DNA of 64,000 nucleotides, taken from positions 24,506 through 88,505 of the forward strand of contig JAFUDQ010000017.1 in assembly GCA_017459075.1 (NCBI GenBank), written 5' to 3'. The DNA is from Bacteroidales bacterium. GTDB lineage: Bacteria > Bacteroidota > Bacteroidia > Bacteroidales > UBA932. How positions within the stretch are numbered: the stretch's first letter is position 1; every line of letters begins with the position of its first letter. Position numbers and translations under genes: made by a program. Below, piece by piece: positions 5,462 through 64,000 of this stretch. The notes below the pieces were generated by a model. It was not told the origin of the DNA. It saw nothing but the letters and a program-made list of their open reading frames with translations, and did not search any database.

Positions 5462-8197
5462 ATGAAAAGATTATACGCATATATTATTGTTCCTCTGATG
5501 TTGCTGGGCTTTATCGCTTCCGCGCAGGAAACGACCGCCTACACCCAGATGGACTCCATAGTGATTGGCAATCCTTTCCGGATCAAGGCTGTCGGGACTG
5601 CGTCCAAATGCGAGGCTGTCTTTGACAAGAGCCCGGAGATTGACATTGCCAAGGCCCTTTATGGACAGTTCTCCGGACTCCTTGTAAAGCAGGGAACCGG
5701 AAGAAGCGAAGAGAATCAGTCCAAGTTGAGGCTTCACGGCCATAGCCCGCTGATCCTGGTAGACGGTTATCCGCGCGAGCTCAATGACCTGACAGGTGTA
5801 GAGATTGAATCGATATCCGTCCTCAAGGATGCTGCTTCGGCTGCAATTTACGGTGTACGCGGTGGTAACGGAGTTATCATGATTACTACCAAACGTGGCA
5901 AGATTACCCCTCTCAAGGTAACTGCAAAATACCAGTATGGTATGGCTACCATGTTCCGCGCACCTGAATTTGCAGATGCTTATACCTACGGTTATTTCGT
6001 AAACCAGGCCCGTGAGCTTGACGGCCTTGCTGCAAAATACACAAACAACGAGCTTTACGCCCTGTACACCGGAGGTTATCCTTACGCTTATCCTAATGTA
6101 GACTGGTGGGATCAGGTTTACCGTAGTCACGGAGACAACCATCGCGCCCAGTTCACTTTCACAGGCGGTAACCAGAACTTCCGTTACTTCGCCGCCCTTG
6201 ATTACTACAAGGATGACGCCCTTTACGTCAAACCTACGGCCGACGACCGCTACAACGCAAAGGTTTATGACAACCGTCTTGGCCTCCGCGCCAATGTAGA
6301 CGTGAACCTCACGGAGACAACTTCCATGAAGCTCGGCGTCATGGCCCGCCTGTCAGAGTTCAATACTCCCAACTGGGACACCCGCATAGAAAAGGTTCTC
6401 TACAACCTGCCCGCAGCAGCCTTCCCCATCAAACAGGAAGACGGTACTTACGGCGGCTCTTCAATCTATGGTGCAAACAACCCCGTAGCCATCCTGAACG
6501 AAACCGGTCAGCATCAGTATTCACAGACCAAGGTTCTTGCCGATATGGTTCTCCGCCAGGACCTGAGTGGCCTTACTCCCGGCCTGTCAGCCGATGCCAA
6601 CATCGCCTTTGACTATCTTGGTAAGATGACTGAAGTGGCATCCAAGGAGTACCAGTATTCAGAGCTTGTCGGCCGTGTTTACATGAACGGCGCCAATACT
6701 ATGATTCGTACGGAGCAGAAATACTACGGAAACAACTCCAAGAACGTAAGCTTCGACCACTGGTTCAACAGCCTCCTCATGAAATTTGAGGTCCAGGGCC
6801 GCGTCAACTGGGAACGCAATTTCGGCAAAAACCATGTAGATGCCCATGTTGCATACCGCCAGCGTTCATGGATTGAGAATGAGCGTAATGCCTCCCAGAA
6901 GACCCAGGAAATCCTTGGTAGCGTAAGCTGGAACTATGACAACCGATTCTTCGCAGACGTAGTCCTGAACTATTCAGGTACCGCTTATCTCCCGGAGGGT
7001 GACAGGTTCAACTTCTATCCTGCCATCAACCTTGCCGCTATCGTATCCCGCGAGCCTTATGTTAAGGTTTACGGTTCTGCCGGCCTCTCAGGTGCAGACT
7101 TTGACATGGAGCACGAACTTTTCCGTCAGGGCTACGGCAGCAGCAACGGCCACGGCTTCTACTTTGTAGATGGCTCATCCTCTTCAGGAAGGGCGGAAGG
7201 AGACATGGCAGCCCTTACCCTTGCTCCTGAGCTCTCAAAGAAGGTTAACTTCGGAGTGGATGCCAAATTCTTCAAGAACAGGCTTGCAGTAAACGCAGAG
7301 GCCTTCTATGAGAAGAGGGAAAACATCCTCATCGACCCTTCCAATATCTCCGGTGTCATCGGTATTGGTGTAAGCGAGCAGAGCCTTGGCGAAGAAAGCT
7401 ACAAGGGTGCTGATTTGAGTCTCTCCTGGGATGACAAGATCGGCAATGTAACCTACGGAGTTTACGCCAACGGAGGATGGCTCACCAGCGAAGTTATCAA
7501 TGACGGTCAGGCTTATCAGCCATTCGACTACCTTTACCATAAGGGCAACCGCGTAGGCCAGCGCTATGGTCTTGAGGTTATCGGCATCTTCCAGAATCAG
7601 CTGGAAATCAACAACAGCCCCCGTCAGACCTTCAGCGACGTAAGGCCCGGTGACCTTAAGTATCGCGACCAGAACGGTGACGGCGTAATTGACAAGCAGG
7701 ACGTTGTAAAGATGTTCGGTTCCACGTTGCCTCTGTTCAACTTCGGATTCGGCTTCAATGTGGGTTGGAAGGGATTTAAGGTATTTGCAGACTTCCAGGG
7801 TGCTACGGGTGTAACCGTAAGCCTGCTGGATTCCCCTCTGTACCAGCCTCTCGTCAGCAACAGCACCATCTCAACAACCTTCCTTTCACGTGAGATTCCC
7901 TGGACTCCGGAGAATGCAGAGATTGCTACAATGCCTCGTCTGACAACTCTTGAGAACAGCAACAACTACCGTGCAAACTCCCTGTGGTACCGCGACGGCT
8001 CTTACATCAAACTGCGCAACGTAGGCGTTTCCTACACCTTCGGCAAGAAGATGCTCAAGCTTTGCGATGCTACGCTTACCCTTAGTGCAACCAACGTATT
8101 CAGCCTTGATAACATCAAGTTCGCCGATCCTGAGCAGTTGGGCGCATATTATCCTACTACCCGCGTCTTCTGGGCCGGTGTCAAGTTTAATTTCTAA
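5462..8197 (+). CDS. SusC-like TonB-linked outer-membrane transporter lacking the N-terminal regulatory-like domain
   Basis: About 911 residues from ATG 5462, preferred over TTG 5450 because it starts a normal signal peptide (MKRLYAYIIV...ASAQ). Unlike the first SusC it has no CarboxypepD_reg-like domain: the mature protein goes almost directly to the plug (LILVDGYPRE, VEIESISVLKDAAS, GVIMITTKRG at about 100-150). The barrel follows, ending in VKFNF. This explains the length, about 145 residues shorter than the first copy. It lies 20 bases after the first SusD and 13 bases before the second SusD. It probably imports a different part or size of the same glycan. Confidence 0.95.
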   Translation: MKRLYAYIIVPLMLLGFIASAQETTAYTQMDSIVIGNPFRIKAVGTASKCEAVFDKSPEIDIAKALYGQFSGLLVKQGTGRSEENQSKLRLHGHSPLILVDGYPRELNDLTGVEIESISVLKDAASAAIYGVRGGNGVIMITTKRGKITPLKVTAKYQYGMATMFRAPEFADAYTYGYFVNQARELDGLAAKYTNNELYALYTGGYPYAYPNVDWWDQVYRSHGDNHRAQFTFTGGNQNFRYFAALDYYKDDALYVKPTADDRYNAKVYDNRLGLRANVDVNLTETTSMKLGVMARLSEFNTPNWDTRIEKVLYNLPAAAFPIKQEDGTYGGSSIYGANNPVAILNETGQHQYSQTKVLADMVLRQDLSGLTPGLSADANIAFDYLGKMTEVASKEYQYSELVGRVYMNGANTMIRTEQKYYGNNSKNVSFDHWFNSLLMKFEVQGRVNWERNFGKNHVDAHVAYRQRSWIENERNASQKTQEILGSVSWNYDNRFFADVVLNYSGTAYLPEGDRFNFYPAINLAAIVSREPYVKVYGSAGLSGADFDMEHELFRQGYGSSNGHGFYFVDGSSSSGRAEGDMAALTLAPELSKKVNFGVDAKFFKNRLAVNAEAFYEKRENILIDPSNISGVIGIGVSEQSLGEESYKGADLSLSWDDKIGNVTYGVYANGGWLTSEVINDGQAYQPFDYLYHKGNRVGQRYGLEVIGIFQNQLEINNSPRQTFSDVRPGDLKYRDQNGDGVIDKQDVVKMFGSTLPLFNFGFGFNVGWKGFKVFADFQGATGVTVSLLDSPLYQPLVSNSTISTTFLSREIPWTPENAEIATMPRLTTLENSNNYRANSLWYRDGSYIKLRNVGVSYTFGKKMLKLCDATLTLSATNVFSLDNIKFADPEQLGAYYPTTRVFWAGVKFNF

Positions 8198-61600: not shown

Positions 61601-61674
61601 TCTGCACAAGCCTTGGTGCGGGGAACTACGCTGCAAATCTAAGGGTTGTAAAGTTGAAACAAACCGCAGCAGCA

Positions 61675-62254
61675 ATGAATGATAAACCCGCACCTGTGAA
61701 CCCCTGGATTGCAGAGGTCATCATGGAATACAGGCAGACACATCCTGATGATTACATAAGGATGCGATATCAGTCATTTCTTCAGGACTGGCCTGGAACC
61801 TCATGGATGGATTTCGTCGCAGAAGTTTCTTTGCAGTACAAGACGTACAAGCAACCACTGATTGTGACTCACCCCTGCAACTGCAATTCGAGATACTGAT
61901 GAGGTACGGAAAGCTGATGGAAGCATACATGGAAGAATTCCCATCCCTGACACCGACGCAGAATCTGTTGGCTGCCGTGCATGCTATTGCGCTGCATTGC
62001 TCTTCGGCCCCAATGCCCTGCGGACAGGCGGCGCCAACAACCTTTGTGGCTCCATACTTTTAAAACTTAACAAGGCCGATGATGCCTTGGCCCGCTATCT
62101 CCAGGCCGCTGATGTTTACAAGAATTTCCGGACTGAATACCGTACCCTGAAGTCTATTTATTCCGATATCGCCGATTGCTACCACCAGCTTGATGACCAC
62201 GAAAACGAAGAGAAATTCCACCTCCTCGCCTCCGCCACCAAGCCGATGGAATGA
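61675..62254 (+). pseudogene. Frameshifted gene for a small TPR-like hypothetical protein
   Basis: Three consecutive reading frames continue one another. The first, from ATG 61675 to about 61850, reads NPWIAEVIMEYRQTHPDDY and SWMDFVAEVSLQ. The second, about 61850-61990, reads QLQFEILMRYGKLMEAYMEE and LLAAVHAIAL. The third, about 61990-62254, reads LFGPNALRTGGANN, KADDALARYLQAADVY and SIYSDIADCYHQL. The last part looks like a TPR helix pair. Two frameshifts, real or assembly errors, break what would be a protein of about 190 residues. I do not know the family. Confidence 0.65.
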
Positions 62255-62294
62255 AATATTATGGAAGGAGTGAACATTTTTTAAATATAATTTA

Positions 62295-62302
62295 TATATT
62301 TG
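62295..62302 (+). promoter_or_regulatory. Predicted -7 element of the accessory operon
   Basis: TATATTTG in a very AT-rich context. No clear -33 TTG. Transcription from here would give a leader of about 270 bases before ATG 62581. Confidence 0.5.
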
Positions 62303-62358
62303 CAAAAGCAGAAATTGCGAATATTGAATACAGAAAGCGTTTAGCTTTTTCCATCTAG

Positions 62359-62548
62359 ATGAATCTGGACAATTCTTTAGACCGTGGAAAAATGGCAATA
62401 ACGCTTATGCTTGCTGTCATAGGCACGTCATGTGCCTTAGACAGCTAAGTGTGGGCATTATTATCTTTTCGGGTCTAAGGGCAGTCCAGAGCCAATCTAG
62501 CGAAAAAGATAAAAGGTCCACACTTTCTGCTTGTATTATTTCTGAATT
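62359..62548 (+). ncRNA. Structured leader RNA (candidate)
   Basis: This stretch between the promoter and the membrane-protein gene holds two stem-loops. The first is AGGCAC-gtcat-GTGCCT (62421-62437). The second is larger (62447-62525): AAGTGTGG pairs with CCACACTT and ATCTTTT with AAAAGAT, around an internal loop and a 40-base apical region. A 29-codon ORF (62359-62448) covers the first hairpin; its LMLAVIGTSC stretch is hydrophobic. The region could be a leader with regulatory structure. No known RNA family is recognised. Confidence 0.4.
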
Positions 62549-62580
62549 TGGACCGGTCAGAAGAAACACGTCGGCAAAAG

Positions 62581-63045
62581 ATGTTTTTGACGATACTTAT
62601 TTCGCTAGCTATTTCATTGGCTGCATTCGCTGTCATTTATTTGATAGCAAATGCAGTGAGCCCTGGGTTTGAATTTACTGAAAGACCTAGAATAGCATCC
62701 ATTTTTGCAGTTTTAATAAGCACTGGCGCGATAACCGCCTATACTTATCTGAGAAGAGTAAAATCAGTTACCGATTACTTTGAGGAAAGTATATTTGGCA
62801 ATGAAATAACAGGTCAATTTGTTCCCGGTTCCCTGAATGACGGGGCAAATACTGTCAGTAGCGGAGCTGGAGTCCTTTGTTATGGAGCATTAGCTGTAGC
62901 GGTTTTGGTAAATCTGTTTTTGCTTGTATTTTTTATCAATTCCGGGAAAAGAAATTCATACGCAAGGAGTCGGAGCGTATCCAAGGTGGGTAGCAGAGAT
63001 GCGGGAAGAGCCCGAAGCAGTTCAGGAATAAGACACAGAAGATAA
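62581..63045 (+). CDS. Small membrane protein next to a tubulin-like gene
   Basis: 154 residues from ATG 62581 (a TTG at 62548 would add eleven). Three hydrophobic segments: about 3-22, 37-52 and 98-118. The C-terminal 35 residues are rich in Arg and Ser (RNSYARSRSVSK, RARSSSGIRHRR) and probably cytoplasmic. No family recognised. Fifteen bases separate it from the tubulin-like gene, so the pair is likely an operon; a membrane anchor or remodelling target for the filament is a natural guess. Confidence 0.65.
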   Translation: MFLTILISLAISLAAFAVIYLIANAVSPGFEFTERPRIASIFAVLISTGAITAYTYLRRVKSVTDYFEESIFGNEITGQFVPGSLNDGANTVSSGAGVLCYGALAVAVLVNLFLLVFFINSGKRNSYARSRSVSKVGSRDAGRARSSSGIRHRR

Positions 63046-63060
63046 CTAAATCCAATAATT

Positions 63061-63882
63061 ATGTCTAAAAGCTATTGTAATACCAACCACATTTTAGTTG
63101 GACTGGGTGGAACCGGAGGAAAGATTCTTCGCGAATTTAAGATGCGAATGTTTGAAGAGTTTCCTACAAAAGAAGAAAGAAGAAAACAACCGGTCAGCAT
63201 TTTATATGTTGATTCTACAAAAGAAATGATGCCGAAAGAAGGAAGACCCAGACCTGATTTCAGGGTCATGGGCCAGGATGCATCGTTTACTAATGAGGAG
63301 TTTCTTTTTATAAAAGGGAGCGATGTTACATATCTTCTGGAGCACATTGACGCTTATCCAGCTTTGAAAGGTATTGTAAGTAATGCTTCATTGGTAAAAA
63401 CCGCGATTGGTAATCTTGGTGAGGCGGCAGGCCAAAAGAGACGAGCCGGACGTTTGTTGTTTGCAAGTAATGCGGTAGCTTTTACTAATGCGATGAAAAA
63501 TGCTTATTCTCGTTGTAGGGATATATCTGAAAATGAACGAGAATTAAATGTTCATATTTTTGCAGGATTAAGCGGCGGTACCGGCTCGGGCTCAATAATA
63601 GACGCAATCGTCCAAACGAGAAAGCTATTTCCATCGGCCGTAATAAGTGTCTATGCCATGATTCCAGAGATGCATCTCCCTAAGCCAAATATGGATAAAG
63701 GTCTATATTACCAAAATGGTTATGCTGCGTTAAACGAATTGAATGCTCTTCAGGCTGGCCGTTATATTCCTCATGATGTAACTGGCGCAGGTTATGAGGC
63801 TAATTTCTGGTCATCATCTGTACATGGAGTCGCAAATGGAATAACTTTATATAGCAATGTGTATATAAGCACTGATTTTTGA
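63061..63882 (+). CDS. Tubulin/FtsZ-like GTPase, 3'-truncated by an insertion element
   Basis: 273 codons before a stop, far shorter than the several hundred to about 1000 residues usual for Tubulin_2-type proteins. ILVGLGGTGGKILREF (11-26) is the N-terminal nucleotide-binding loop, and HIFAGLSGGTGSGS (about 167-180) is the tubulin signature GGTGSG. Further blocks: SILYVDSTKE and LFASNAVAFTNAM. The last three or four residues (TDF) and the stop codon come from the end of the adjacent element. Prokaryotic members of this type are tied to membrane remodelling or conflict systems. What followed originally lies beyond the element. Confidence 0.78.
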   Translation: MSKSYCNTNHILVGLGGTGGKILREFKMRMFEEFPTKEERRKQPVSILYVDSTKEMMPKEGRPRPDFRVMGQDASFTNEEFLFIKGSDVTYLLEHIDAYPALKGIVSNASLVKTAIGNLGEAAGQKRRAGRLLFASNAVAFTNAMKNAYSRCRDISENERELNVHIFAGLSGGTGSGSIIDAIVQTRKLFPSAVISVYAMIPEMHLPKPNMDKGLYYQNGYAALNELNALQAGRYIPHDVTGAGYEANFWSSSVHGVANGITLYSNVYISTDF

Positions 63883-64000
63883 GCCAGATTTTCACTGATT
63901 TGTGAGCCACGGGTAGGCTGCGCAAAGTTATACTTTTTCTTTATTTTTTTCAAACAACTGCTGCGTTTCTTTAAGTCTGTAGGACTCTCCTGACATGTTG
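63873..64000 (-). mobile_element. End of an IS21-family-like insertion sequence (partial)
   Basis: Two 16-base direct repeats, CACTGATTTTTGAGCC (63870-63885) and CACTGATTTGTGAGCC (63893-63908), 23 bases apart, mark the end. Multiple terminal repeats are typical of IS21-family ends. Inside lies the end of an IstB-like gene on the minus strand. The insertion cuts the tubulin-like gene. The family call rests on these two points only. Confidence 0.55.
63928..64000 (-). CDS. istB: IstB-like ATPase of an IS21-family element, C-terminal 23 codons only
   Basis: On the minus strand the frame reads MSGESYRLKETQQLFEKNKE and ends at TAA (63930-63928). The GESYRLK ending resembles the C-terminus of IstB helper ATPases of Bacteroidetes IS21 elements. 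Only the tail is in the window, so the call is tentative. Confidence 0.5.
   Translation of the reverse strand, partial: NMSGESYRLKETQQLFEKNKEKV

Follow-up and report, generated by a model that had tools for sequence, protein, structure and literature searches.

The stretch of DNA analysed here (the window) comprises 64,000 nucleotides (nt) from a Bacteroidales bacterium (GenBank assembly GCA_017459075.1, contig JAFUDQ010000017.1, here C8). It covers C8:24506-88505, and C8 is 88,505 bases long, so the right edge of the window is also the end of the contig. Near that edge lie a promoter-like element, a structured leader RNA, a gene for a small membrane protein and the 5′ part of a gene of the Tubulin_2/FtsZl1 family, which is cut by the end of a mobile element (Table 1). 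The tubulin-like protein belongs to a known, poorly understood family and here stands in a less familiar form of operon. The leader is the more novel and surprising feature of the locus: it is a member of an RNA family that, judged by comparison of its copies, is real and apparently undescribed.

Table 1. Features at the right-hand end of the window (positions are those of the window; aa, amino acids; ORF, open reading frame; E, expectation value)
Feature	Positions	Strand	Evidence
Element TATATTTG, taken as a Bacteroidetes-type -7 promoter element	62295..62302	+	TAnnTTTG motif 33 nt before the RNA
Leader RNA family member (trunk helices i, d, e; lobe helices a, b, c, g, h; central hairpin)	62328..62540	+	Model R1 168.6 bits, model R2 129.4 bits (high by construction, as the sequence is in both training sets); fold z; covariation
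Most conserved motif, GAATCTGGACAATTC	62361..62375	+	Local hairpin whose loop pairs with distal GTCCAGA; helix d/d′
3′ strand of last stem (g′, 62516-62523) and T-rich run, terminator-like	62516..62533	+	T count after g′
Small membrane protein, 154 aa	62581..63045	+	ORF; hydropathy; position as in 9 of 12 relatives, no sequence match
Tubulin_2/FtsZl1 gene, 5′ part (266 codons)	63061..63859	+	Pfam PF13809, E 6.4e-42; 62-79% identity to L003-L010
Insertion-sequence-like repeat end, to contig end	63860..64000	.	140 bases identical to C30:1-140, other flank

A long structured leader had already been noted in a first-pass annotation of the window, and both its fold and its relatives bear this out. 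The stretch 62310-62580 has a minimum free energy (MFE) of -91.2 kcal/mol (z -6.36), and 0 of 200 shuffled sequences were as stable. A DNA search of 101 genomes with the leader recovered short conserved stretches from several genus genomes, together with a single match, at 67%, that spans most of the leader. A covariance model built on eight aligned sequences (R1; 13 of its 44 predicted pairs show double changes) then matched in 40 of the 101 sampled genus genomes (E up to 0.01), at up to 6 places per genome. Of the 72 places listed by the R1 scan, 3 lie antisense to true copies; of the other 69, all in the sense direction, 63 were fetched and six weak ones left out. Removing L140 (an exact duplicate of L141) and adding L004, L038 and L041 gave the 65 copies on which a second model, R2, was built; the trunk described below is not encoded in it. 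Reverse-strand matches on true copies score 14-33 bits, and a score of about 30 bits is unproven without independent support. The copy at L004 scores 29.7 bits with R1, has the motifs and the position of the family, and reaches 60.8 bits with R2, in whose training L004 took part.

With R2, matches were found in at least 95 of 295 genomes of the order and 63 of 183 genera (E up to 1e-4), and in at least 10 of 296 genomes from a wider draw of the phylum (E up to 1e-6, own genome included), so that the family is sparse outside the order. The order and phylum counts are lower bounds, with at most 8 candidates scored per genome and strict filters. The genome of the window holds three leader copies, the other two at G000:C19:2129-2344 (L117) and G000:C34:107036-107258 (L180). 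Paired matches within about 1.2 kb of each other occur at G313:C706, G416:C817, G531:C8 and G320:C66. Three genomes, one of them from another family, share a leader that is identical along the aligned part (L140 in G107:C18, L141 in G244:C5, L164 in G264:C7), which suggests recent transfer or a mobile element. A further copy (L181, at about 7107-7320 of IMGVR_UViG_2802429514) lies on a contig classed as viral, before a gene for a 732-aa lipoprotein-like protein and with integrase-like ORFs near it by eye; three patterns searched in IMG/VR gave 0, 1 and 0 contigs, and a viral origin of the leader was set aside.

Known RNA families do not account for the leader. Rfam 15 gave chance-level matches only in the window (mir-210 overlaps the RNA, but on the opposite strand, at E 0.29 and 20.7 bits where the gathering score is 50), and none that overlapped the copies in seven genus loci and L036 (E up to 1) or in 11 further sources (E up to 0.5). 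The RNA motifs of Weinberg et al. (2010; Bacteroidales-1, Bacteroides-1 and 6S-flavo in portions of PMC2864571) are likewise structured RNAs of the same phylum, but their Rfam models miss the window and eight other sources (E up to 1) and the 11 further sources (E up to 0.5). Two others, GUCCY-hairpin and Bacteroides-2, have no Rfam accession in the table of that paper and so fall outside the Rfam comparison. A narrow search of the open-access literature, including excerpts of PMC8040213, PMC7366714, PMC2864571, PMC8632094 and PMC11109978, gave no recognisable description of the leader; unnamed candidate RNAs in the supplements to PMC8040213 could include fragments of it.

Evidence for a conserved structure comes from base pairs that are kept while their letters change. 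In a partner-swap test, eleven candidate helices were scored by how well the 5′ strand of each sequence pairs with its own 3′ strand compared with those of other sequences (65 sequences, 500 shuffles). Three helices that form a trunk score highest (i, z 24.9; d, 17.8; e, 25.4), and the helices of two lobes follow (b 10.3, h 11.7, g 9.0, a 4.6). The alternative rod pairings b′/h, a′/g, a/g′ and b/h′ reach z of 1.9-3.6, and the simple rod fold with a/g′, a′/g and b′/h pairs that was used in R1 is thus unsupported by partner swapping. Helix d/d′, in which the loop of GAATCTGGACAATTC pairs with the distal GTCCAGA, is paired in 96.7% of cells of the 65-sequence alignment, and 7 of its 7 pairs show double changes. 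Over 41 aligned pairs (helices i, d, a, b, c, g and h; e was left out, its spacing being too variable), 90.5% of 2631 cells are paired, against 74.8% in shuffles (0 of 500 as high) and 39-46% in slid controls. Cells with double changes number 445, against 141 when shuffled, and compensatory changes occur in 29 of the 41 pairs; helix i stays paired although up to 39 of the 65 sequences carry changed letters in both of its strands. Positions next to the helix cores that are not Watson-Crick are G-U in 98 cases, A-C in 18 and other in 64.

Sequences fetched later behave in the same way. Among 22 of them the trunk helices i and e have z of 14.7 and 8.8. Three of the 22 were set aside in a repeat of the test: L164 is identical to L141 of the alignment, L166 and L175 are 98% alike, and L036 has its anchor on helix i rather than d. 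With L164, L175 and L036 removed, the remaining 19 give 13.2 for i, 7.8 for e, 4.8 for b, 3.3 for a, 3.0 for g and 2.7 for h; d served as the anchor and was left out. The trunk and lobe sets cross and both covary, and the RNA therefore forms either a large knot or two states.

The place of the RNA is as regular as its structure. A TAnnTTTG motif, which we take to be the -7 promoter element, occurs within 75 nt upstream of 58 of the 65 copies, in most cases at a distance of 30-45 nt from where the alignment starts. At the other end, the 10 nt after g′ hold a mean of 7.2 T over the 65 copies (6 or more in 57), while the next 100 nt are 28% T. Downstream, the first ORF with at least 100 aa shares the strand of the RNA in 56 of 62 cases (binomial P 1.5e-11), as against 19 of 38 for the nearest upstream ORF. 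The gap to the next ORF has a median of 40.5 nt (24 of 56 at 30-50 nt, 20 at 37-44 and 7 above 200), and in the window the membrane-protein ATG follows the RNA after 40 bases. ORFs and operons behind the leader were called here by a longest-ORF rule, without a gene finder. With a promoter motif upstream, a gene on the same strand downstream and compensatory changes between them, the RNA is, as far as sequence comparison can tell, a cis-acting leader. A small variable hairpin was also observed between the -7 motif and the RNA, near the expected start of the transcript (57 copies, mean stem 6.6 against 4.8 when shuffled).

The genes that follow the leader are diverse. Among the highest-scoring copies outside the Tubulin_2 sources, the leader at L100 is followed by genes of an anti-phage system (SspB, SspC, SspD, PbeA and PbeC) and that at L111 by those of another (HmaB and HmaC). 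At L099 (G159:C4) it precedes an FtsK/SpoIIIE ATPase, a WXG100-like protein whose match stays below the Pfam cut-off, and PP2C-like and kinase-like genes recognised by eye; these may form a type VII-like set. At L104 the leader precedes an SPFH protein carrying GYF_2, and surface LRR proteins and zinc-ribbon/FHA proteins are also among the genes so preceded. At L101 (G186:C4:147000-157500) the leader is followed by a 465-aa protein with a weak Tubulin match, a 1067-aa protein and a MotB/ZorB-like protein; a lipoprotein with a vWA-like motif was seen by eye at this locus, which looks like a tubulin-like system of a different kind. A survey of 86 RNAs, 76 with a usable first gene, found no Pfam family in more than 7 first genes (the top one being the BspA-type LRR) and 25 PADLOC families, each in 1. 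On these counts both a riboswitch for the metabolite of one pathway and a regulon of defence genes only were rejected.

The leader was found at 6 of 21 Tubulin_2 sources (the window, L004, L036, L038, L040 and L041); L036 is in neither training set, and L038, L040, L041 and L004 were found by R1 before their use in R2. Five of the 21 sources are cut upstream by contig ends, leaving 6 of 16, which against a chance rate of 1-2% (generous, and our own estimate) has a P of 7e-9 to 4e-7.

The tubulin-like gene of the window had been read in the first-pass annotation as a tubulin/FtsZ-like GTPase in a multi-gene operon of higher AT content, cut by an insertion-sequence-like end after about 270 codons, and each of these points held up. 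The nucleotide loop GLGGTGGKIL and the signature GGTGSG lie in the same 273-codon frame (63061-63882), and the profile search that the annotation had proposed for these residues placed the frame in PF13809 (Tubulin_2; 144.5 bits against a cut-off of 27, profile positions 1-246 of 356), with a weak match to the general Tubulin profile PF00091 (E 0.0017). The GTP-binding loops T1 and T4 (GGTGSG) are present in the window protein and invariant in 12 intact relatives. Scans of the window proteins with NCBIfam, PADLOC and PHROGs gave nothing useful. The GC content is 39.9% over 62255-63860 and 50.5% over the whole window; the tubulin part is at 40.5%, and only 1 of 78 tiles (800 nt) to its left is equally AT-rich.

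Similarity to all nine related loci ends at residue 267 of the window protein, where the repeat begins. Its 140 bases recur on C30, another contig of the same genome, read in the opposite direction and with an unrelated flank beyond. Because identical ends with different flanks are what two copies of an element do to an assembly, the repeat from 63860 onward is the end of a mobile element, present in two copies with different flanks on C8 and C30. No match to it was found in plasmids, viral contigs or 100 other genomes of the genus, and no transposase was seen. The annotation had placed the remainder of the operon to the right of the window; the gene is indeed incomplete, but the contig ends at that edge and no other piece of the gene was found in the assembly. 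A full-length relative used as a query of the assembly matched the C8 piece only, and the remainder is therefore either lost or unassembled. A transposon-disrupted member of the FtsZl1 family is reported from Sulfolobus in passages of Makarova and Koonin (2010; PMC2875224).

Intact relatives show what the operon looks like when uninterrupted. Twelve loci of the kind found in the window (type A) were compared, L003-L010 from genome records and L033-L036 from a family search. Their tubulin-like proteins are 1008-1040 aa long and stand in a conserved operon. The tubulin of L003, the one type A tubulin scanned for GYF_2, has this domain at 958-1003 (E 2e-17), and a consensus of the 12 proteins has a GYF-like segment within a Pro-rich C-terminal part. 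A predicted structure of the L003 protein (mean predicted local distance difference test score 70.6, predicted template-modelling score 0.59, 12 sequences) begins with an alpha/beta part at the N-terminus, has helices of 32, 48 and 69 residues within 475-637 and closes with a Pro-rich tail of low confidence; a profile of the 12 relatives had no match among solved structures at E up to 0.1. The gene after the tubulin encodes a protein with an N-terminal zinc ribbon (a weak Pfam match, E 4e-4 in L003, below the cut-off), one hydrophobic segment and a C-terminal YxGxxxxGxPHGxG pattern that recalls MORN repeats by eye and has no Pfam support. This zinc-ribbon/transmembrane (TM) partner is present in 12 of 12 operons, ten by clustering and two (L007 and L008) read from frames. 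Further genes include cluster 1 in 12 of 12, cluster 4 in 9, cluster 5 in 8 and the PEGA-type cluster 8 in 5 (its member in L004 carries PEGA and FGE-sulfatase in Pfam), and many of them begin with a hydrophobic stretch. A second kind of operon (type B) from the same taxonomic family combines a lipoprotein-like gene with a tubulin-like protein of 912-976 aa (L032, L037-L042) and a partner of 1167-1233 aa in 6 of 7 loci, L042 being cut by its contig; a DVTLS motif was seen by eye in the type B relative L038. Altogether, Tubulin_2 scores above its Pfam cut-off in 12 of 149 genomes of the taxonomic family.

The small membrane protein ahead of the tubulin gene is a more qualified case. It had been described as a three-helix partner with an Arg/Ser tail, encoded 15 bases upstream. 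The spacing is right (ATG at 62581, stop at 63045), as is a Ser/Arg/His tail, and the three helices are partly supported: hydrophobic segments are clear at residues 5-23 and 101-119, and the middle helix falls under the hydropathy cut-off. The annotation had also proposed looking for the uninterrupted pair elsewhere. By sequence clustering, 9 of 12 intact relatives encode a small membrane protein ahead of the tubulin gene; most of these proteins have a basic Ser/Arg/His tail, but a profile of these nine proteins does not find the 154-aa protein of the window at E up to 10, and direct comparison with them gave no significant similarity. That it is the same protein was accordingly rejected, and a similar place, size and tail were kept. 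Its one match in 100 other genomes of the genus is weak (E 5.9e-4).

These operons resemble and depart from systems already described. FtsZl1/Tubulin_2 proteins were described by Makarova and Koonin (2010), in passages of which (PMC2875224) the family has an N-terminal FtsZ-like GTP-binding part with GGTGSG, about 1000 residues, a membrane-linked multi-gene operon and a patchy spread, all as found here, as well as long central helices, here seen in the model of L003. Bacteroides caccae is named in a figure legend of that paper, and its family is not stated in the legend. Portions of PMC9871819 set Tubulin_2 sequences apart as “FtsZ-like”. The present operon type differs in its C-terminal GYF_2 (L003) and zinc-ribbon/TM partner, and a Pfam scan of ten type A operon genes found no vWA (E up to 0.1), kinase or GTPase partner. 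Two further marks of the family, a central coiled coil with a helical C-terminal part and an operon gene with a vWA domain, concern portions that are cut off in the window. The GTPase-centred conflict systems of Kaur et al. (2020; excerpts of PMC7159879) likewise join a tubulin homologue and membrane parts in accessory operons, some with GYF, but the ten scanned genes hold no GAP1 GTPase, HSP70 or known effector of the kind seen there. From its anatomy and the published work on FtsZl1, the product of the operon would be a membrane-anchored GTPase assembly in which the GYF and zinc-ribbon/TM parts link to exported envelope proteins.

What, then, might the leader do? The transcript would start with the leader RNA and run on into the Tubulin_2/FtsZl1 operon, here cut by the mobile element. 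In a “stop” state the 3′ lobe (g/g′ and h/h′) would form with its U-run, halting RNA polymerase before the operon; in a “go” state the loop of the 5′ lobe would pair with the 3′ half of the RNA (trunk i, d and e), blocking or remodelling the last stem so that transcription could proceed. A conditional terminator is favoured because of the order of the strands and the U-run, and there seems somewhat better than an even chance that the leader is such a two-state switching RNA. Since the downstream genes share no family, a common factor or a cell state is likelier as the signal than the metabolite of one pathway.

Several observations weigh against a two-state terminator. There might be no switching at all, with the trunk and the lobes present together in a single knot. 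The full-length MFE averages 14 kcal/mol below that of the separate halves, and the “off” state would therefore need kinetics or a factor. The 3′ lobe has long loops, unlike a textbook terminator, 8 of the 65 copies have no clear U-run, only 24 of the 56 gaps to the next ORF are of 30-50 nt, with 7 longer than 200, and the leader is absent from 10 of the 16 Tubulin_2 operons with upstream DNA. The covariation has its own weak points: further pair types are in slight excess (94 against 87.0 in shuffles, 5 of 500), the G-U excess comes mostly from the lobes while helix d has 0 G-U and 2 A-C, the lobe scores of the 19 later sequences (z 2.7-4.8) are biased since R2 selected most of these by their lobes, and the swap statistic ignores relatedness, which the slid control does not.

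Other roles for the RNA have to be considered alongside these doubts. Leaders such as EAR, put and JUMPstart are precedents for processive antitermination, and the present RNA could similarly alter RNA polymerase and thereby allow long accessory operons to be transcribed in full. It resembles EAR, JUMPstart/ops and other leaders of long operons in its position and its unrelated downstream genes, as expected of a general elongation device, and under the crude ORF rule a run of at least three genes stands behind 34 of the 56 same-strand copies. It differs in having no Rfam match to any of them and in its stem with U-run and crossing helices. The other 22 copies lead one or two genes only (some cut by contig or stretch ends), and the U-run directly after the last stem fits a terminator better. 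Nor do UpxY-type NusG paralogues track the RNA (35 of 40 genomes with the RNA against 48 of 61 others, Fisher P 0.30); the link was not found in what is a weak test, as the threshold admits ordinary NusG (9 of 14 control genomes match) and most genomes with no match are incomplete. Antitermination seems unlikely. In a post-transcriptional role the RNA, by itself or together with an RNA-binding protein, would make the mRNA more stable or hide the downstream start region and so control translation. Such a role would make sense of the start of the next ORF 37-44 nt on in 20 of 56 copies and of the small extra 5′ hairpin, but it leaves the conserved U-run unexplained and appears a little less probable again.

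Two further readings would do away with the leader altogether, and both look very improbable. The rod-like MFE structure, the terminator-like end and the length near 210 nt recall a stand-alone small RNA of the 6S kind that lies before genes by chance; such an RNA would hardly recur within a genome ahead of different genes and in their orientation, and the Rfam 6S models have no match at E up to 1. Slightly more remote still is a DNA element, whether a miniature inverted-repeat transposable element, a cruciform or a recombination site. The copies are dispersed and some lie close together (G313:C706 and G416:C817), one exact copy is common to three genomes (L140, L141 and L164) and one is on the viral-classed contig, all as a DNA element would have it, whereas the 98 G-U against 18 A-C at the helices and the orientation toward genes argue for an RNA. 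For the proteins, the rival to an envelope or membrane-remodelling machine is an operon that is primarily an anti-phage or conflict system; the first-pass annotation had called it possibly defence-related. A defence role is unproven: it draws indirect support from the same leader before the SspBCD-Pbe and Hma systems, from the patchy distribution (12 of 149 family genomes) and from tubulin homologues in published conflict systems (excerpts of PMC7159879). Set against it are 0 PADLOC matches for the tubulin-like and membrane proteins of the window at E up to 1 (which an undescribed system could also give), no effector domain in Pfam among the ten intact-operon genes and few PADLOC matches among leader-preceded first genes, and we regard a primarily anti-phage role as doubtful.

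A conserved leader with crossing helices, present in about a third of the sampled genomes of the order (at least 95 of 295), would be a widespread and so far unassigned regulatory RNA of gut bacteria. More speculatively, and with the chances rather against it, Bacteroidales may have a regulon defined by RNA, in which knotted or two-state leaders answer to one shared trans factor or cell state, such as damage to the envelope or attack by phages, and open accessory operons that are otherwise unrelated, among them those for FtsZl1 machines, surface proteins and phage defence. Through its sequence, the leader gives a way into the timing of expression of some defence, surface and FtsZl1 operons, and it flags uncharacterised operons that may be under joint control. 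With the Tubulin_2 operon and its GYF and zinc-ribbon partners, the function of FtsZl1 could be tested in an order of which many members can be cultured.

A few minor observations concern the neighbourhood of these elements. Other structured RNAs lie on two of the loci, each at a separate place: a DUF805b RNA (RF02914) at L160:2607-2641, on a leader-bearing locus and without overlap, and an RT-5 RNA (RF03026, E 5e-13) at L036:1270-1372, in a stretch that also contains a type A tubulin locus. In the window, two short ORFs occupy 61654-62254, to the left of the promoter; one has a TPR match (E 1e-5, below the cut-off), and together they look like a decayed TPR gene.

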